Source: Rhea pennata
Lineage: Eukaryota; Chordata; Aves; Rheiformes; Rheidae
Direction: 5' to 3'
Length of the DNA stretch: 64,000 nucleotides
Assembly (NCBI RefSeq): GCF_028389875.1
Contig: NC_084678.1
Coordinates: 13,608,899 to 13,672,898 of the forward strand
A model generated the notes under the pieces. That model had not been told where the DNA came from, searched no databases, and saw only the letters and a list, made by a program, of their open reading frames with translations. Shown piece after piece: positions 15,453 to 62,094 of the stretch. Each line of letters opens with the position of its first letter. The first letter of the stretch is position 1. A program made the translations under genes and the position numbers.

Positions 15453-16367
15453 TCAGATGAAGTGGATCCAGCTCTCTTCACATTCTCTAGGCATCTTAAG
15501 AGGGTAATTCCGGCAGGTAAAACTGTAGTTTTTGCCTCTGTTGTTATCCCAATACTCCTGGCCGTTGACTTGGTATCTTGCTGCAAATTGGACTACAGAA
15601 CACAGTTGAAGGAGGAAAGGAGGTACAGGGAGAAAAAAAGTGAAAACATCAATGTGAGCCTGTCCATTTTTCTCAAGGATGCTATTATGCCAATGAGCAT
15701 ACACTTCATGGAGGCTTTTCCACTGATTGAATGTGTATCGCACAGATACCTGCTTCTCAAAAGCAATATTACAAACTTGGATGTTGCCACTGAGCCCCAG
15801 ATCTGAACTGGTCACTCGTTCAAGACACACCTGCTGCTCCTGAAGTCGGGCAGAGAAATCCACACAATCCGCGGGCTGCTGGAAGTCAGGCACCAAGCAT
15901 TGCATGGTGAACTCCAGGTCCAAGCTGTTGCACCAGAGGTCTGAGTTTATGGAGAGCCTGGAAAGGACATGCAAGGGGACTGATGGATCCTCTCCAGTTT
16001 GGAAGACTTTGACTTCAGTCAGCTCTAAGCCCAAAGCATCAGCAAATCTCACCCTGTTCGTACGACCCTTGCATCCTGGAACTCGGCACTGAACTCCTGC
16101 TCGCTTTCTTCTTTCAGGCGATGTAGGCAAAGACCTTGCTCGGCGGCGTATGATAGGCCGTAAAGCCGGATCGCAGCTGGTGGCGGTGCTGCTCTGAAAC
16201 TGATTTGGCTGCGAGTCGCCCTTGGCTGGGATACCGCTCAGAAGATTCATGCTGCTACTTGTGTGAACCGCCCGGGGCTGCTGCTGCCCCTGACCCGGCG
16301 CTGCCTCAGCTCTCCAACAGAGATCAGAGAGGTAGCTGGGACTCCTCCGAGGAACACGTACCTCCAT
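15453..16367 (-). CDS. PPP1R3D: PPP1R3D, protein phosphatase 1 glycogen-targeting regulatory subunit 3D (R6)
   Basis: Single-exon coding region of 304 aa. The family anchors PP1 catalytic subunit to glycogen and promotes dephosphorylation of glycogen synthase and phosphorylase. Visible: a 14-3-3-type site RARSLP with Ser79; the PP1-docking RVxF motif RVRF at 105-108 followed by ADALGLEL; DPSVPLHVLSRL at 127-138; and a CBM21 glycogen-binding domain at roughly 170-285 with FEKQVSVRYTFNQW and the substrate-contact block YWDNN (272-276). The C-terminus CEESWIHFI is nearly identical to the human protein as I recall it. Start choice: ATG at 16367 has A at -3 and G at +4, and an in-frame TAA lies two codons upstream. 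Length is close to human (299 aa). The gene is transcribed away from FAM217B. Confidence 0.97.
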   Translation of the reverse strand: MEVRVPRRSPSYLSDLCWRAEAAPGQGQQQPRAVHTSSSMNLLSGIPAKGDSQPNQFQSSTATSCDPALRPIIRRRARSLPTSPERRKRAGVQCRVPGCKGRTNRVRFADALGLELTEVKVFQTGEDPSVPLHVLSRLSINSDLWCNSLDLEFTMQCLVPDFQQPADCVDFSARLQEQQVCLERVTSSDLGLSGNIQVCNIAFEKQVSVRYTFNQWKSLHEVYAHWHNSILEKNGQAHIDVFTFFLPVPPFLLQLCSVVQFAARYQVNGQEYWDNNRGKNYSFTCRNYPLKMPRECEESWIHFI

Positions 16368-16579
16368 TCTTTACCGATGACAAGGAGCTGAAGTTGCCAC
16401 TGCAGATACTGAGTACTGCCTTTCTGAAGCACGTAACTTGGGAATGGCGGCCAGAGCAGGAGGGTACTGGGGGTGGTTGTGCTGGTGGCGGCAAGAGCCC
16501 ACGGGAGCAACGCAGCCTTCTGCAACTTGGAAGAAACTTGGAAGCTCTCGCAGTAGCTGGCAGCTCCTGCATTGAAGGG

Positions 16580-17330
16580 GAAAGATGAGGGCGGCCTCAC
16601 TGGCTGGTGAACTCGAGGCTGTTACCTTGGCTGGCGGAGCCGGTGCTCAGGCTGGAAAGGGCACGAGCTGTATCACAGCTGCTGCTGGAGGACCCGAAGT
16701 TCTCCCGCGGGCTGGAGACCGACTGGAGGCTGTCGTGCGGGGCGCCGGCGGGCTCCAGGCTGCCCCAGGGGCTGCGGGAGGCCGGGCGCGGCCGCTGCAC
16801 GGCGCGGCGCTGCGGGCTGTCCCCGCAGCGGCCGCAGGGACGCTCGAGGCTGCCACACCGCCCGGCTACGGGCTGTCGGGCGGCGCGGCGGAGCGGGGAC
16901 TGCGGCCTGAGGGGGAGCGAGCCGCGCTCGGGGGCTTCGCGGCCCACATCGGCTGCCGGCGGAGCGGCCCCCTCAAGCCCGGCCCGGCGCCCGCAGCCGG
17001 CCGCCGCCCCGCCGCCCCTGCGCGCCCGAGCCGCCGCCGCCGCCCGGGCCAGCAGCGCATGCGCAACCCACCCCCCCGCAACCAATCAGAGCGAGCCGCC
17101 CGTGCGCTGCCACGCGCATGCGTCGCCGCTCGGCGCGTGCGCACTAGCCAGATTGACGCCGACTTGCCCTTAGCTGTCGGCGGACGCAGGTAGCGGGCAG
17201 GGGCTGGCGGGACCGGGGCGGGGGGAGCTCGAGGGGCAGAGGGAGGGGAGCGAGGGGCGCCCAGGAGACGGGCCGGGGTCGCGCAGCCGCAGCCGCAGCC
17301 GCGGCCCGGAGCAGCGCCGCGGGGCGGGGG
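16580..17330. promoter_or_regulatory. CpG island, probable divergent promoter of PPP1R3D (-) and FAM217B (+)
   Basis: Very GC-rich block directly upstream of the PPP1R3D start. Clustered sites: NRF1-type palindrome GCGCATGCGC at 17055-17064, GCGCATGCGT at 17114-17123, GCGCGTGCGC at 17133-17142, and CCAAT at 17082-17086. The motif cluster suggests transcription starts near 17.1-17.2 kb on the plus side. Rightwards, at about 17189-17260, the DNA is strongly G-rich on the plus strand, and a GCAGCC hexamer repeat lies near 17283. Long open frames on both strands across the island (up to about 220 codons) are compositional. Confidence 0.75.
17145..17189 (+). other. FAM217B: Candidate FAM217B first exon, 3' boundary at 17189
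   Basis: CGGACGCAG followed by GTAGCG gives a plausible donor just downstream of the NRF1 cluster. The 5' limit is a guess. Joining this end to the exon at 19261 keeps an open frame (…GGR then SGGKSH), but no start codon lies within the presumed transcript. Confidence 0.4.
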
Positions 17331-19260
17331 GGACGATTCGGTGCTGCTCATCTGCACCTCGAGAAAACTGCGCATCTCCGGGAATGCAGCTGCTGGAAGA
17401 TAAAGGAATATTGCACGTTGCGCTTGAAGTATTTTTAGTATGAGCTTAAGGGTAGCGAGGGATTGTTTTGGAAGAAGAAAGCGAAGCATTCGATATAAAA
17501 CTTGCGTGTCGGTCTGCACCAAGAGTGCATTTTCTGACACAAAAAAAGGAGAACGCAGCCCGCACGGAGCGGAGCTGGCTGAGCCTCTGTTCTTGCTAAA
17601 TTAAGAGCAGAGACACCCACCAGCCATTTGTCTGTGATACTTGGCTCTGGTCAATGCAGGCACCATAGTGCAAGGAAAGAAGGGTGAGGAGCACGCCATA
17701 AAATGCAATATAACTCTTCCAGTGCTGCTGTGCCCTCAGATGTTACTGTTTTTTTCGGTATCTTCACCAAGCATCTTCTCGGATGCCTGTAAGCCCTTAG
17801 CCCGGGAGGCGGCTGGCCCGATTCCCGGAGGCTCGGGCTGCCCACGCGGGAGGCCGCCGCGCTCCGCGGCCCGGACCCGCGGCTCCGCGAGGATCTGCAA
17901 CAGCAGGGTGAATAATGCCGACTGCCGTTAAACAAGCAAGTGCCGGGGGTGGCAGAGTGGCTTCCAGTACCGTCTGGGAGCTGATTACGTTACTGCTTTT
18001 TTATGTTATTTTATTTTTTAAGTCACACGCTGGGAGGAATTGCATGGTGTTTGTTTACTGTATCTCTAGGACGTGGTGATGTTTGCGTTTGATATGCTGT
18101 GTCTCGTGAATGCAAAACACTGGAGTCCTTTGAAGATTATGTAAAAATAAAGGTGCAAGGTACTCTTCAAAGAGAGTAATAATGGGACCAGGCATTCAAG
18201 AATATCCTTTATTACTGCCCAGAGAGACACAGCAAAAGGAAAGCCAAATCAATGAAAACCACAAAGGAATGGTAAAGTAAGGAAATCATCTTCTCTCTTT
18301 ATAGTTAGAGAAGTCTCTAAGTGCCCTAAAATGGTTAATAAACGCATGGCTGTGTACTGTTCAGATTCTCATCCTCCTCTCTGATCCGCAGCAACGCAAA
18401 CGATTGCGCTGTACGATCTCGCAGGTTGCAGCGACAGAGACGACTGCGCAGTGCTGGAGGCACAAGACTTGTTTTCCTTATTTTATAAGCTCTTAAAGTG
18501 ATGACATTTTTTGTTTTAAACAAGATCAAACTAAACTGACACCAGAACTATGAAGAATATGTACTGCCTGGCAAAATGAGCTGCACTGCACTCGATCTAA
18601 AGTAGTCTGGGAGGGTACAATTTGTTTATTCCTGCTCTAAAATGATATTTTAAAGCTTTCCTTTTTGAAACAGTAATATTTTGTATTGCAGAACAAACAT
18701 CATTTTTTTGATTCTTACAGAATACACTATTTTAATGATTCTGTGTGGGGGTTTCTTTTAATATTATAAAAAACTATATGCTACCTGCTCACTTTGCTCA
18801 TTATCTTCATAAAAATATTTCTTTAAATTTTGTTGAGACTATGCAAATGAGATAGTGAAGCAGAATTTGAATTGCAGTGGTCTTCATATTTTATTTAAAA
18901 ATTACTTTTGTTAAATTGCAAGGGTCCACAAGTACCAGGTACTACAAAAATTAGTAGTTAAATATACAGTCTCTGATATTTACTATGCCCAAAATAACTT
19001 TGGTTTCCTCTGACAGAATAATCTATTTAAGGACCAAGTTCTCTTATTATATTTTCTATTGGAATTATGCAATTTTGTGTAGTATAAAAATAAAAAGTGA
19101 CCAGAGCATAGTTCTGATGAACATTAAGTCTAAGTATAATTGAAGCCAACTCTGTCTTTTAAACTGACTTGCACTGTAAAATTTTACTGTATTTCTGTTC
19201 TGATGATGAAATATGTTAATATTCGAGTGTGATAATCTGTTTAATCCTTTTTAGTTACAG
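17331..19260. other. Probable FAM217B first intron
   Basis: No coding exon recognised. A second small GC-rich patch lies at about 17800-17890. The remainder is AT-rich. Confidence 0.5.
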
Positions 19261-19551: not shown

Positions 19552-21048
19552 GTAATTTTATGTTAAGATACCCTGCTTAATTTGTAGACCTTTCAAACCA
19601 GTATATAAAATGACTGTGATGAAATCATGGCTTCATTAATTTCCATGAGAATTTTGCCTTTGACTTCACTGGCCCCATAATTCAGTATTTATGAGGAAAA
19701 CAAACTTAGGTTATCAATATGGAAACTTGTTATCCTGCTTCAATGATCTTCCAAGCAGAATCAGAAAAAAAAAAAAGACAAAGAAACCCCCCCAGAAAAA
19801 TAATTACTTTTGATAGAGGCCCTGAGAATTAAGAATCAACATAGGAGTTTTCACAGTGAAAGTACCTTTAAAAGATCCATTTGAGGGAAGAGGAGAATTC
19901 TGGATCTAAGAAGTTTTCAAGAACAAGTTGAGGGGCACACAAAACATAATGCAATGTGTGAGAGAAGAAAACTGATGCTGGGAGGGAAATGCAAACAGGG
20001 CAAAAAGACTGAAAAATTAAATGACTATGTTATGTAGAGTTTTAATAGTGGATTAAAACAAATTCAGAGAGGATTCATGCTTGGGCTGAGGAAATAGATC
20101 GGAATAATATTGCCAGATATATAGATTCCTGGCAAAAGAATGGAGTGGATACAAGCAAGTATTACGAACCTATATTTAATTTTAGAATTCTGTTTTTGGA
20201 TCTTACTACTTCTTTAACAAGCAGGTGAGAAAGATCTATTTAAACTAGTGTCCGCTACAGAAATGGAAGCTATTTTGGATAAATGGTTAAGTTTGGTGGC
20301 ATACCAACATTATTTTTACTGCTGAATCTTGACTCTATCCACAGTGATGTCTCTGTAAATAGAGACCGTTGTTCAAGAGCTCTTTTTGTGCTTCTCATTA
20401 TATAAAATTTTATATCTGTTGTCCGCTAGTCCCTCCAAGTTTGAATGCAGACGCTCACAGTTCGTTGTATTTATAAGGTACTGTTTCTGACATTTTCTGT
20501 TATATTTCCTCTTTTAAGACTTAGTAACATCTTATATTTAGGACTATACCTCAGGATATTTTGAGGTGAATGCTGCCTTTAATTTATGATTGATGAGCAC
20601 AATGGGAGCTATACACAGCAGTAAGTTTTTATTTTTAAACTATTCAGCATTCATTACAGAGAGGGCCGCATTCTCAGCTGCCATGAATGAGTGAAGGGAG
20701 TTACCGTCAGTTTATACCAGTAGTGATTTGACCATGAAAGCTTGATTGTTTTGTTGTATATCCTAACTGTTCATTCTGGCAATGGTCTCCGTTTTTAGAC
20801 TAAATTTTTATTTCATATGTAACATGCACTGCAATGTATATCAAATAAGTCAAACCAGAAAATAGGGTAGCAGACAGTGTTCTTTCTGTCAGCAAATATT
20901 AACCTTACCTCATCAGTAAATTTTCATGCCAATTTTAGCTTCATTCATGTATATTCAAATTCCTGAAGACACTAGCAAGTCCTTTTTAACTTACTGTTTC
21001 AAAGACATTGATCATTTTACTTGTATATGACTTTTCTTTCTATCTAGA

Positions 21049-22239
21049 ATGATGAGTGCTTGCACATCGTTGCACAGAGTACAAGGATCAAAGGGGAGTA
21101 TCCCAGAAAGAAAGCAAAGTGGATCTGTACTACACAGGATCCCTCCTAGCATTAAGGGCAGCTCACAAGGTAGCTTCAATAGGGTAAAAGATGTCCCAAT
21201 GCAACATTTTTATTGCAGTGAAAAAGAACAGTTGGAAAACACTCATAAAGAACATAATGCTGAAGCTAGTCCATGTTCTTCTAAATGGCAAGAAGCATCT
21301 GTAGGTGAGATGCTTCTCAATTTTGAATCAGTACGAATTATTAAAGAAGATGCTGAAGACGATAGTGCCAGTGACCTTTCCGATTCAGAAAGGATTCCCA
21401 TTCCCCCGTCTCCCTGCACACCACCAGAACTCATTCTCAGAGCCGAAGAAATTGATCCGGTTTGTCTGGAACATGTCCTAGATACAGGGTTCAAAAAATC
21501 AGAGTATTATTACCCCGACTTCCTCCCACCCCCTTTCAACTCTTGGGATTTGAAGCAGCTGTCTATTTTTGTTAATGTAGAGGGTAAATCTGAATTTCAA
21601 CCAAAGCCAGCAGGATTTCTTGAGAAATACATTGATCGTCTTTTGCAGCTAGAATGGCTGCAAATGCAGACTGTACAGAATGAGAAAGGAAAGGCAGCAA
21701 AAGCCAGACCTCAGACTGCTCCCAGCTCCATCCGTCCCCTAAAAAGCCCTGGCAAAGGTAAAGCATTGCACAGCTCTTTGCCTAACAAGCAAGGAATTCC
21801 CCAAGAAAGCATTACAAAGCAACCCACAAGCTATTCATGTCACAGGAGAGACTCATACTGTGAAGAAAACCGCCAATTACATGCACATCCAGGTCACTTT
21901 AAAGTTTCTGAGCGAATGGGATGTGCACTGTCATCTGAGAGACAATCTGGTGAACTAAGGAGTGAGTTGAGAAAGAGACCAACTGCAAAGCAGCAGCTTT
22001 TCAATATGCAGCCCTCTGAGAACAGTTCTAAAATACAAGGCATTAGTAACATCAGATCCCCTAAGCAGACCCCTCAATACCATAGTTCAGCTGCTTCCGT
22101 TAAAAGCTTAAAAACATATACATGTACAAATCCGAAGAAAAATGGCAATGCTAGTAATTATGTTCCTTCCAAAAAAGCAACAGGAGACAGGAAAATGAAA
22201 ACAAATGGCACGATGCAAACATCACGTAAATTTAAATGA
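21049..22239 (+). CDS. FAM217B: FAM217B, family with sequence similarity 217 member B (last exon, 396 aa)
   Basis: Large coding last exon starting after acceptor TATCTAG at 21047. The protein is largely disordered and basic at the C-terminus. The conserved core is IIKEDAEDDSASDLSDSERI with PIPPSP (97-122), TPPELILRAEEIDPV (124-138), SEYYYPDFLPPPFNSWDL (151-168) and the helical FLEKYIDRLLQLEWLQMQTV (190-209). These match human FAM217B as I recall it, including the N-terminal spacing (human starts MNAGPSW), so MMSAC is the likely conventional start. Molecular function is not established; human expression is reported in testis and elsewhere. No membrane segment or catalytic motif is seen. Two in-phase upstream exons leave open an N-terminally longer form. 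Confidence 0.92.
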   Translation: MMSACTSLHRVQGSKGSIPERKQSGSVLHRIPPSIKGSSQGSFNRVKDVPMQHFYCSEKEQLENTHKEHNAEASPCSSKWQEASVGEMLLNFESVRIIKEDAEDDSASDLSDSERIPIPPSPCTPPELILRAEEIDPVCLEHVLDTGFKKSEYYYPDFLPPPFNSWDLKQLSIFVNVEGKSEFQPKPAGFLEKYIDRLLQLEWLQMQTVQNEKGKAAKARPQTAPSSIRPLKSPGKGKALHSSLPNKQGIPQESITKQPTSYSCHRRDSYCEENRQLHAHPGHFKVSERMGCALSSERQSGELRSELRKRPTAKQQLFNMQPSENSSKIQGISNIRSPKQTPQYHSSAASVKSLKTYTCTNPKKNGNASNYVPSKKATGDRKMKTNGTMQTSRKFK

Positions 22240-29952: not shown

Positions 29953-32900
29953 GTAGGTGTGGGCGCGGGGTGCAGCGCTTGGCTCCCTCCAGGGACGAGA
30001 CCTCTGGCCACCAGGCGAGCTACTGGGCTGCAGCCCCAAGGGTGCAGTGTGCCCCTGAGCGCAGCGCCCTGGGGAACAGTAGCGGCTCTGCTCCCAAATG
30101 CTGGGCTCAGGCCTCGCGTAAAGGGTTGATGGGGAAATGGCCCCATGGAGCTGAGGCCTTCGGCTCCTGGTGAGGATCCTGGGGCATTTGTCCCTGGTGT
30201 CCTGTGGTGTCTCTGCTGCATTTACGATCCCCCATGGTAATTCAGCGGCATTTCCATGCATGTTTCTGTGGGGTTCATGGGTCTGAAGCAGGTTGTTCCT
30301 TACTAACAGTGGCCAAGGCTGGAACGGATACGGCAACAGCTGCTGCCGTGCAGTTGATGCACACAAAGGAGTGTAGAAGCCATAAACCGCATGATTAAAG
30401 CTCTTAGTATACTTAAGAGTGGTTATACACACATGGGGAGTGTGTGCCTGTGTGTGGGAGGTGCTGCCCGGCACAGACAAGGATTAACAAAGTCCACCAG
30501 AGCTGAACCTAGAGCCAAGCTAATAAATGCTACCGTTTGAGTGCTAGGATAAAGCCTTGCTTGCTGTTTCTACACCACAGAGGCTCAGGTCACACAACAC
30601 ATAACAACACAACACACAGCAGCTTCGCAGAATAGCTCCAAAGCATTACTCAGGAGCACCCATTGCTTGGGGGGTGAAGTTAATAACCATGGCAATTCCA
30701 TTAGCCGTTTGTTGCTCCCAAAACAGTTCTGGAGATAAAGGCCTGACCTTTGCCCAGCCTAGGTGGGAATGGCTCTGCTCCATTCTTTAAAGGACACTGG
30801 AGACATTTGACAGAATAGGCTGGTAAAAAGCAAGTGCTCACAGGAATGTGAGAATGAGGAAAAAGAGTACAAGCTATCTTTGAGCAAACGCCAATAGTGT
30901 AATTTGAGTACTATCACACTAGTGGTGGAAGGAAGATTTTAAGTAAAAAGTAATGATGTTTGAAGTTTGTGCAAAAAGTTTGTGCTTATAACAGGACAAA
31001 TCCTGCTAATTAGGGTGGAGTCCCATTCTCAACAATGTATTTTACTCTGGATTACAGACTTTGGTTCAGTTTGGGACACAGAGTAACATGATAAAGTTTT
31101 TGAGAACCTGAAATACTCTCCAGACTTCTTATTTTTTTCAGCAGAAAGTTTACAGTCCTGTCAATACAAATTGTAAAAGCAGGGAGAGACACAGAGGAAT
31201 ATTTCAGAATTTCAATTACCAGGAGCTGATTTGAGAAGAAGCCATAGAGATAACACTCTGGAGAGTGAGATGCAGTGTTTGCATGTTTGTGGGACTGGCA
31301 TCAGCTAACCAAAAAAATCAGTGTCCAAGGTCTCATGCCAATTCACTTGCAATGGGAAGGATGATATCTCTGGAATTTCTATAATTTTCTAGCATTAACA
31401 ATTTAATACAGTGCTGTCAGAACTGAATCAATACATTTCTGTGAAACCAAATTCCTCCTATGCAACATTCATACCAATGTTTTCTAGCTAATCACACTTC
31501 TCACTCAGGACTTCTCTTTTATAAGGTTACTGCTGCCAACACTTTTTCTCATGAAGTTGAAAATTTCCATTTAGGACAAGCTATCCAAAAGAAGACTACT
31601 CAGGTTTGTAGTCAGTGTTATTTAGTAACACATACACAACCACTAGTAGTTAAAGTACAACACTAAATGCACTTCTTTATCCAATAGTGGCTAGATCCTT
31701 ATCAATTGGATGGTCTACATCCTCTACGGCGTACAAAAAGGACATGGGTTATCACCACCATTGTTGTTCAAGAGGAAGAAAAAGGACCATTCCCAAAATA
31801 TGCTGGACAGGTACCAACAAGCTTTTAGTACAAGCTCTTCTCGAACCTCTGTAGAGAGGGTCGTCATCAGTGGTGTGGTGTCTAGTTGGAGGCCTGTGGC
31901 TAGTGGCGTCTCCCAGGGCTCAGTTCTGGGTCCCATCCTGTTCAACTTCTTCATCAATGACCTGGATGAGGGGACAGAGTGCCTCCTCAGCAAGTTTGCT
32001 GATGATACCAAGCTGGGAGGAGTGGCTGGGACACCCGATGGTGTGCTGCCATTCAGAGAGACCTGGACAGGCTGGAGAGCTGGGTGGAGAGGAACCTCCT
32101 GAGGTTCAACAAGGGCAACTGCAGAGTCCTGCACCTAGGGAGAAATAACTCTAGGCACCAGTACAAGCTGCGGGCTGACTTTCTGGAGAGCAGCTCTGCA
32201 GAGAAGGACCTGGGAGTGCTGCTGGATGACAAGTTGACCAGGAGCCAGCAATGTGCCCTTGCGGCCAGGAAGGCCAATGGTCTCCTGGGGTGCATTAGGA
32301 GGACTATTGCCAGCAGGTCAAGGGAGGTGATCCTGCCCCTCTCCTCAGCCCTGGTGAGGACTCATCTCGAGTCCTGCATCCAGTTCTGGGCTCCCCAGTA
32401 CAAGAGAGACATGGAGCTACTGGAGAGAGCCCAGGCTACGAAGATGATCAGAGGGCTGGAGCTTCTGCCCTATGAGGAACGGCTGTGAGAGCTGGGCCTC
32501 TTCAGCCATGGGGAAGAGAAGACTGAGGGGAGATCTTATCAATGTGTATAAGTACCTGAAGGGAGGGTGTCAAGGGGACAGGGACAAACTCTTTTCAGTT
32601 GTCCCATGTGACAGGACAAGAGGTAATGGGCAGAAATTGAAGCACAGGAAGTTCTGCCTGAACGTGAGGGGGAATTTCTTCCCTGTGAGAGTGACGGAGC
32701 ACTGGAACAGGTTGCCCAAAGAGATTGTGGAGTCTCCTTCTCTGGAGATCTTCAAGGCCCGCCTGGATGCAACCCTGTCTACCATGCTCTAGGTGACCCT
32801 GCTGAGCAGGAGGGTTGGACTAGATGATCTCCAGAGGTCCCTTCCAACCTTACTGATTCTATGATTTACCACCAATTCTGCAACAAAATATGAAGGCTAG

Positions 32901-52528: not shown

Positions 52529-52676
52529 AAGGCCAATAATTAAAGCAGAGTCTAAGTTTCCTTGCTTCGAGATCCAGGTGGCTTATTCCAAAACACAGCC
52601 AGAGAGCAAGCTAACACTACAATATGACTGATAATGGGGAAACCGGGCTCAAACATGAGCTGAAAATGTAAGCTAA
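52529..52676 (+). repeat. Source copy of a ~146-bp segment duplicated at 54.2 kb
   Basis: Begins AAGGCCAATAATTA and ends TGAAAATGTAAGCTAA. No target-site duplication flanks this copy, so it is the likely donor locus. It shares about nine tenths of positions with the second copy, differing mostly by transitions and one deleted T. Confidence 0.88.
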
Positions 52677-54173
52677 TATTGCTGTATACACATAGTTATG
52701 GATAAAGTACTCTCAGAATGAGAGGAAAATCAGGAAACTAGATATCCCAACATGGTGATTGCTAATCTTTAACTCTGAAAATCCTACTTCATGAGACTCT
52801 TTTGTAAACTCTAGCAGCGAGCTTTTTAAAATGTATTAAGTGTCTAACTTCCACTGGAATTAATGGGAATCAAATGGCTAAGTATCATTAAAAATAGTCT
52901 ATTTCCTATGTCTCCCTACTGTAAAATGGAATCAATGGTTCTTCCTATCTCAAAGAAATACTTCTAAAGATTATGAGGTGTTTTGACAGGACAGTAATAG
53001 GAATCATGTAAGTATCCTAGATAGAAATGTGAAGTATTTCTGAATGGATACTATGCTTATATGCTAAATAAATATTCAACAGGATATGAATTTTTTAAGC
53101 TAAAGATCTAATATTATACAGAGTCTGTGCTTTCATGTAGACAAGCTATTTATTTCAGAAATGAGGAAGAAAACTGACACCTTGCTGTGAAGTTGCTGGA
53201 TATTTCCTAACAAGAACATGACGAGGGTGAAACAATTTATGCATGTGCTTGCCTTGAATGGAGAGTGTGGGAGTTCACACAAAAATTCAGGTTTATTTCA
53301 GTATATTGGTGAGCTACAATGGTTAACTTCAGGCACTCAAATAGTTGTCATAAGATACCTGGCAAACATCACAGGACGAGGCATTGACAAAAACAGGGAA
53401 AAAACCCCAAGCAAACAACTTTCTTGATTTAAAATCCCAAACTCTTTAAATGCAGGTGGTTTTACCACTGCTGAGAAGCATTGTTGTTGTGAATTTTGTC
53501 TTAGGCTCAAAATGCTTATGATTTTTTTTTTTTTGCACTTTCTGGATTACTGCTTCCTTACTCGACTACAGTCCAAAAGAAATGTAGACTGATCTTGTTG
53601 AAACAGGTAAGACTGCAAAGGCACTGTAGAATGGCAGAAGGCGGAAATACAGAAAGGAACAAGGAGGAAAGACACAACAGGTTGGCTGGTTGCTTGACAT
53701 TTGAATTACAACAATTACACACCTACCCCTTTATCGTTTTACAGCTCAATTGTGCCCTCCTTACACAGGCAACATGCCAAATGGAAGCCAGTGGGAGTTT
53801 TACCTGAACAGAAAAATTAAGGATTAAATCCCTACTGTGCAATAGCCTACATGCCCTACAAAAAGGCCAAATCAAGTCACTAATCCCACTGATCTCCTGA
53901 ATAGCCACTGTGCCCCAAGAAAGAGAGGAATTATAGCACTAAACAAACACAACCAAATAAAACCTCCGGGCCTTAGCTGCAGGCCTACCTTTCCATAGAG
54001 ATGTTTTGAGAGAGAGCAGTCCTTTGCCACCCCTTGCCCCAGGCAGCTCACTCACTTGCAGTGAAATCCTCTGCTCCTCATCACTTCTCATTGTATTATG
54101 CTTTTCTGTTATGAAAATTAATATTTGCTTCAAACATTGCAGACAGGATATGCCGTTACCTTCCACCTTTGCC

Positions 54174-54359
54174 ATCATTTACATACCATAACAGAAGGCC
54201 AATAATTAGGGCATAGTCTAAGTTTCCTTGCTCGAGATCCAGGTGGCTTATTCCAAAACACAGCCAGAGAGCAAGCTAACACTATGATACGACTGATAAT
54301 GGGGAAATTGGGCTCAAACATGAGTTGAAAAATCTAAGTAATCATTTACATACCATAAC
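54174..54359 (+). mobile_element. Inserted copy of the 52.5-kb segment with 19-bp target-site duplications
   Basis: The direct repeat ATCATTTACATACCATAAC lies at 54174-54192 and again at 54341-54359. Between them, about 148 bp is a diverged copy of 52529-52676 in the same orientation. There is no poly-A tail and no recognisable SINE or LINE body. Confidence 0.88.
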
Positions 54360-60629: not shown

Positions 60630-62094
60630 ACTCTATCATCTCTGAAAGGTCCTGGAGAACAGGAGAGAAGCCTGAGAACTGGAAGAAAGACAGTGTCACT
60701 CCAGTCTTCAAAAAGAGCAAGAAGGAGGACCCAGGCAACTACAGGCTCACCTGCATCCCTGGAAAGGTGATGGAATAGCTCATCCTGGATGGCATATCTA
60801 AGCATTTGGAGGAAAAGAAGGTTATCAGGAGCAGTCAGCATGGGTTCACCAAGCGGAAATCATACTTAACCGTGCGTGATAGCCTTCTATGATGGAATGG
60901 CTGGCTGGTTAGGTGAGGGGAGAGCAGTGGATGTTGTCTACCTTGACTTCATTAAGGCTTTTCACACTGTCTCCCATAATGTCCTCATAGGTAAGCTCAG
61001 GAAGTGTGAGTTAGACGAATGGACAGCGAGGCAGATTGAGAACTTACTGATATGCAGATCTCAGAGAGTTGTGATCAGTGGTGCAGTCTAGTTGGAGGCC
61101 AGCAGCTAGTGATGTACCCCAGGTCCGTACTGAGTCCAGTCTTGTTCAACTTATTCATCAGTGACTTGGATGAAGGGACGGAGTGCCTCCTCAGCAAGTT
61201 TGCTGATGATACCAAACTAGGAGGAGTGGCTGATACACCAGAAGGCTGTGCTGCCATTCAGAGAGACCTGGACAGGCTGGAGAGTTGGAGGGGAACCTCA
61301 TGAAGTTCAACAAAGGCAAGTGCATGGTCCTGCACGTAGGGAGAAAGAATCCCATGCACCAGTATGGGCTGGGGGCTGACCTGCTGGAAAGCAGCTCTGA
61401 GGAGAAAGACCTGGGAGTGCTGGTGGATGACAAGTTGACCATGAGCTAGCAATGTGCTCTTGTGGCCAAGAAGGCCAATGGTCTCCTGGGGTGCATTAGG
61501 AAGAGTGTTGTCAGGAGGTGATCCTCTCCCTCTGCTCAGTCCTGGTGAGGCCACATCCAATTCTAGGCTCCCCAGTACAAGAGAGACATGGCTCTACTGA
61601 AGAGAGTCCAGCGTAGGGCTACAAAGATGATTAGAGGACTGCAGCCTCTGCCCTACGCGGAACAGCTGCGAGAGCTGGGCCTGTTAAGCTTAGGATAGTT
61701 TAGATAGGATAGTTTAGGATAAGAGAAGACTGAGAGAGAAGGGATCTTATCAGTGTATACAAATGTCTTAAGATAAGGTGTCAAGAGCATGGGACCAGAG
61801 TCTTCAGTAGTGCCATGCGACAGGACAAGAGGCAATGGGCACAAACTGAAACACAGGAAGCTCCACCTAAACATGAGGAAAAACGTCTTCTCTGTGAGAG
61901 TGACAGAGCGCTGGGACAGGTTGCCCAGAGAGGTTGTGGAGTCTCCCTCTCTGGAGATATTCAAAACCCACCTGGACGTGATCCTGTGCAATGTGTTCTA
62001 GGTGACCACGTTTGGGCGGGGGGGTGGATGGATTAGATGATCTCCAGAGGTCCCTTCCAACCTCAACCATTCTCTGATTCTGTGATTCTGTGAT
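60630..62094 (+). mobile_element. CR1 LINE, 5'-truncated, intergenic
   Basis: About 1.46 kb of CR1 pol 3' part and 3' UTR. Recognisable reverse-transcriptase text: KSKKEDPGNYRLT, AVDVVYLDFIKAFHTVSH and [20 protein letters not shown]. It ends AGGTCCCTTCCAACCTCAAC and three TGATTCTG-type units. Many stops and frameshifts, a KAFD to KAFH change at a catalytic position, and a GGATAGTTTA duplication near 61690 show it is dead. Confidence 0.95.

Follow-up and report, generated by a model that had tools for sequence, protein, structure and literature searches.

How did a short piece of neighbouring DNA come to lie, without a tail, between two perfect copies of a 19-bp sequence in the genome of Rhea pennata? 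The locus that raises this question occupies positions 54174-54359 of the window, by which we mean the whole 64,000-nucleotide stretch of DNA analysed here. Its answer depends on whether the flanking repeats mark a genuine insertion, on which of two similar segments was copied from the other, on how many further copies the genome holds, and on which of several copying processes would leave this combination of marks.

The insertion, its junctions and its donor

An exact-match search located the 19-bp sequence ATCATTTACATACCATAAC at two sites in the window, a left copy at 54174-54192 and an identical right copy at 54341-54359, both on the plus strand; no further site was found in the window with up to three mismatches allowed, and the shuffled window gives a chance expectation of 0.01 matches at that tolerance. 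Between the repeats lies an insert of 148 bp (54193-54340), and alignment identifies most of it as a copied segment in donor orientation (54195-54340, plus strand, the match extending to 54342). The donor is a segment at 52529-52677 on the plus strand, located by alignment, own-genome search and flank comparison. Aligned on the same strand, 54195-54342 and 52529-52677 share 147 ungapped columns with 10 substitutions, eight of them transitions, and three single-base gaps, for an identity of 91.3% with gaps included, and the homology spans the insert nearly edge to edge and ends there. The original prediction, that about 148 bp resembling a segment at 52.5 kb sits between exact 19-bp copies, is borne out by these alignments. 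From the donor's end to the start of the copy is 1,518 bp, and the shift between the two copies is ~1.7 kb. An assembly artefact is ruled out by the substitutions and gaps that separate copy from donor, differences from which it follows that neither is a duplicated piece of the assembly.

At the left junction 2 bp separate the repeat from the start of the homology, an AG at 54193-54194 (plus strand) that alignment leaves unmatched in the donor and that could be filler or else diverged donor bases (CC). At the right junction the donor homology overlaps the repeat by 2 bp (AT), a possible microhomology of a length that chance can also give; the 2-nt possible filler and the 2-bp overlap are each weak taken singly. 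The repeat itself stands out from its surroundings: over the window and a further 200 kb, 264 kb of uninterrupted sequence in all, no exact repeat spaced 60-800 bp apart is longer once simple repeats are removed, and no other reaches 15 bp, the next longest measuring 14 bp. Because repeats of 15 bp or more also turned up in simulated sequence (0, 0, 1, 1, 1 and 2 in six runs), a repeat of ~15 bp alone would be no proof; the repeat copies here lie within 2 bp of both edges of the homology, and the insertion signature is therefore secure. The insertion with its flanking duplication is thus confirmed as real and well formed, and joining its flanks reconstructs what would be the ancestral empty site.

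The two segments differ in what surrounds them. At the donor edges, comparing 47-bp flanks gives a longest direct repeat of 5 bp, and widening the flanks until they extend into the donor gives 6 bp; when 5,000 pairs of 47-bp stretches were drawn at random from the window, ~86% shared a repeat of at least 5 bp. Since the donor edges carry no repeat beyond the usual, the 52.5-kb copy is the donor and the 54.2-kb copy the insertion, and the direction of copying can be read from the flanks, as had been claimed.

Copy number and retroposition hallmarks

We searched the genome in which the window lies (C16:13608899-13672898; 1,268,942,789 bases in 180 contigs) with 54174-54359 as the query and obtained two candidates, both scored, which were the query itself and the donor. 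Because this search skips very common words, a result of two places alone is no proof of rarity; it did recover the donor, and the words of the query were therefore usable. As a control, the same search with the 3' end of a CR1 element (32594-32866) gave 2,890 candidates, and the 40 that were scored, self included, showed 95-100% identity. Within the window, no other copy of the insert appeared above chance-level matches of 10-14 bp. Searching the 264 kb for duplicate pairs at any distance and on both strands (blastn, E <=1e-5, low-complexity filter on) returned eight, among which the insert and its donor are the only pair lying within 10 kb of each other, direct or inverted. The additional 200 kb surveyed yielded no second local event, and because there is no second local pair and the window was picked for the present event, a rate of such events cannot be given.

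Neither end of the insert carries a terminal poly-A/T tract of at least 5 bp. The longest A run in the insert has five bases and lies 8 bp in from the right end; the donor has four A's at the same place, so the run comes from the donor and is longer by one base. A poly-A of 10-40 and a polyadenylation signal are absent on both strands, and the CR1 octamer ATTCTRTG has no match in the insert on either strand. The insertion site offers no TTTT/A nick site, the left cut (TTTGCC/ATCATTT) and the right cut (CATAAC/CAGTGG) fitting it on neither strand. The insert shows no Pol III promoter: it has one weak A-like site and one weak B-like site, but these lie on opposite strands and so form no A/B box pair. 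The window has no match to any Rfam family at the gathering threshold. The earlier description of the insert as a one-off piece of nearby DNA without a 3' tail holds, with two places in the genome and no terminal poly-A.

Other kinds of mobile or foreign DNA were also considered. A DNA transposon was rejected because the ends of the insert are not mutual inverted repeats and because 19 bp is longer than the usual target-site duplications of such elements. An exact 30-base piece had no matches among viral contigs and a 23-base piece none among prokaryote contigs, results that are expected of vertebrate DNA and carry no weight.

Probable repair of a staggered break and its alternatives

We consider it highly probable that both ends of a break with a 19-nt stagger were filled in and linked by a patch copied from 1.7 kb away. 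The process would have begun with a germline double-strand break at 54174-54192, with cuts on opposite strands 19 bp apart. One of its ends, possibly the right end with its 3' tip ...AAATGAT, would have paired through a very short run of complementary bases with the donor 1.7 kb upstream, whether that donor lay on the same chromosome, its sister or its homologue, and ~146 nt would have been copied from it. The new strand would then have been released and end-joined to the opposite end with a 2-nt filler, and fill-in of the staggered ends would have doubled the 19 bp, which would be kept on each side of the insert because both strands were cut, or copied as if cut, 19 bp apart. Behind the observed anatomy, direction of copying, two genome places and absent retroposition hallmarks we infer the break, its polarity, the invading end, a DNA template and the enzymes; the right end as primer is favoured by the AT overlap, 2 bp that may be chance. 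We take the insert for a repair scar with no evident function.

Events of this kind were described as "repair-mediated duplications" (RDs), proximal where the donor lies <5 kb away, by Pace, Sen, Batzer and Feschotte (2009; PMC2671141). In that report, proximal RDs have a median insert of 147 bp (minimum 50 bp, largest 619 bp), and their donors lie 1.2 kb away on average; none of the 39 proximal cases inspected, in hominids, has a poly-A, and target-site duplications of 4-21 nt occur in six of the 39 (three MH+TSD, two MH+TSD+Filler and one Filler+Del+TSD). Duplications also occur in 7 of 12 untailed interchromosomal cases. The present insert resembles them in its donor, 1,518 bp away on the same chromosome and so under 5 kb, in its length of 148 bp and the lack of a poly-A/T tract at its ends, and in a 19-bp duplication inside the 4-21 nt range, filler and microhomology being among the signatures listed there. 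The insert length, the 1.5-kb gap, the duplication and the possible filler and microhomology, all falling within the ranges of that report, support repair (PMC2671141). It differs in that those RDs were recognised as interruptions of transposable elements, whereas here the duplication itself revealed the insert, in DNA that gave no other copies; and the breakpoints inspected there were compared with empty sites in orthologues or a consensus (PMC2671141), whereas the empty site here comes from joined flanks. We conclude that the event is most likely a proximal repair-mediated duplication, ordinary for its kind and set apart only by its long perfect duplication and its discovery without an interrupted transposable element. 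Such events are already described in vertebrates including chicken, for which the same report lists six, or 0.08 per Mb of transposable-element DNA; the original statement that few are described in birds is fair, and literature term searches found no paper besides PMC2671141 on a local repair duplication in a bird, which is not to deny that others exist.

Several observations count against repair. Flanking duplications are a minority among proximal cases, at 6 of the 39 inspected (PMC2671141), the left junction lacks microhomology, and its AG could be donor bases rather than filler. Human templated sequence insertion polymorphisms fall into two classes with templates described as distant, and in that scheme duplications mark the LINE-1-mediated class 1 and not the repair class 2 (PMC5110952). 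Class 1 insertions carry a target-site duplication of at least 5 bp, TTTT/A, a polyadenylation signal and a poly-A of 10-40; the present insert is likewise templated and flanked by a target-site duplication, of 19 bp, but has none of the other three marks. It may share with class 2 a microhomology and non-templated bases, whereas class 2 has no target-site duplication, and its donor, 1.7 kb off, is not distant as the templates of either class are (PMC5110952).

The long duplication had originally been read as pointing to LINE-type nicking, and 19 bp does lie in the size range of the duplications made by LINE insertions. On this reading, which we judge unlikely, the endonuclease of CR1 or another LINE would have nicked the two strands at staggered positions, and the reverse transcriptase of the same element would have copied in a nascent donor RNA that had no tail; the AT overlap at the right junction would be the start point for target-primed synthesis on a plus-sense RNA, and CR1 is abundant in this genome. 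Moreover, one proposed scenario shows a CR1-mobilised avian SINE between the two copies of a target-site duplication (PMC5729268). Against this, the two CR1-mobilised passerine SINEs, TguSINE1 and PittSINE, carry a 3' hairpin and an 8-bp microsatellite, ATTCTRTG (PMC5729268), and this octamer is absent from both strands of the insert; the insert also lacks a poly-A at its end and a TTTT/A site, its donor is merely 1.5 kb off with no additional copy found, and tails occur in none of the 39 inspected proximal duplications as against 17 of 29 in the other group (PMC2671141). Nor does a long duplication by itself imply a LINE, since six of those 39 also carry one of 4-21 nt (PMC2671141) and staggered-break repair duplicates sequence without a LINE (PMC8355091). 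In the latter report, staggered breaks with complementary 3' overhangs give tandem duplications via Pol alpha-primase (CST), and 5' overhangs give them in 9.8% of wild-type products by a route called unanswered there; the present 19 bp could likewise have been doubled without a transposon, but those copies are immediately adjacent, whereas here a 148-bp patch lies between them (PMC8355091). Because a LINE nick would give the same geometry, with the AT overlap at the expected start, we leave the LINE route some small share of the probability. Of the proposed templated patch at a LINE nick, the local patch is supported; the LINE nick is a step that the explanation does not require, and neither a TTTT/A site nor a CR1 octamer was found. 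A middle case, a LINE-made break mended with a DNA patch, is possible because the rate of RDs in primates tracked LINE-1 activity and LINE-1 was proposed as a source of breaks (PMC2671141).

The template may instead have been an RNA from the same locus. The more general proposal that in birds the untailed nascent RNA of a nearby locus is reverse-transcribed into a CR1-made staggered nick, giving local inserts with long duplications and no CR1 tail, has in our view a still lower probability than the LINE reading of this one event. If true, such a route would bypass the 3'-end requirement that Suh in 2015 reportedly proposed as the reason for the scarcity of avian retrogenes. Replication template switching of the FoSTeS/MMBIR type, in which the polymerase exits, copies the donor and returns 19 bp behind its point of departure, would yield an identical product, with a local donor, the same orientation and short microhomology at the return junction; the exit junction, however, has no microhomology and possibly a filler, and we give this reading only a very slight probability. 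It is a variant of the break-repair explanation, and the data here do not cleanly separate the two. Least credible of all is that insert and donor belong to a low-copy retroposon or SINE family that has gone unrecognised, the alternative that the original prediction had offered. A short unit with a long target-site duplication is SINE-like, but the genome search, though it skips very common words, gave two places and not hundreds, and on the contrast with the 2,890 candidates for the CR1 tail we rejected a SINE or low-copy repeat; the other matches in the window are at chance level, the insert has neither a one-strand Pol III A/B box pair nor a tail, Rfam gives nothing in the window at its gathering threshold, and the donor has no target-site duplication of its own.

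Age, significance and genomic surroundings

Returning to staggered-break repair, the K2P distance between insert and donor is 0.072. We assumed a rate of 1.5-3.5e-9 substitutions per site per year, at which, if the sequence is neutral, the event would be about 10-24 My old. The chance that the 19-bp pair stays identical at that distance is 0.25, so its perfection does not contradict this age. Between 52543-52668 and 54209-54334, six of the 10 substitutions form three adjacent pairs (AA/GG, CA/TG and CC/TT), an excess with P = 0.016 by shuffling in a test chosen post hoc. These adjacent substitutions may have arisen by error-prone synthesis at the birth of the copy; if so, the age is an upper bound and the event is younger.

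The locus offers a scar that is clean and can be dated, most probably left by germline break repair in a bird, and it was not detected as an interruption of a transposable element, the setting that the screen of PMC2671141 covered. Where the duplication of such a scar is intact, a single sequence tells how far the cuts were staggered, which segment was the donor and which way the copying went, and a genome-wide count in birds would bear on whether the 0.08 per Mb given for chicken is real or an effect of method (PMC2671141).

Two CR1-like elements lie elsewhere in the window, at 31695-32866 and 61124-62079, in the same orientation and 79-90% alike over aligned blocks; the former carries a reverse-transcriptase match (a fragment), and both terminate in ATTCTATGATT-like octamers, a microsatellite typical of amniote CR1 according to PMC5729268. 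Together with the genome size of 1.27 Gb, these elements point to bird DNA. A protein-family scan covering 10 of the 39 listed open frames identified a CBM_21 frame at 15453-16370 on the minus strand (E 6.8e-33) and a FAM217 frame at 21031-22239 on the plus strand (E 2.4e-76). A cadherin-like exon at ~35.8 kb fell below the Pfam cut-off (E 0.019) and matched solved cadherin chains with a best E of 9.1e-26; two more frames judged to be cadherin by eye had no Pfam match. We take the CBM_21 frame to be PPP1R3D and the FAM217 frame to be FAM217B, and presume the gene order PPP1R3D-FAM217B-CDH26. The 2-kb step at 16001-18000 has a G+C content of 0.64, against 0.31-0.51 in the other steps, and covers the start of the minus-strand CBM_21 frame together with sequence upstream of it; it is perhaps a CpG-island promoter.
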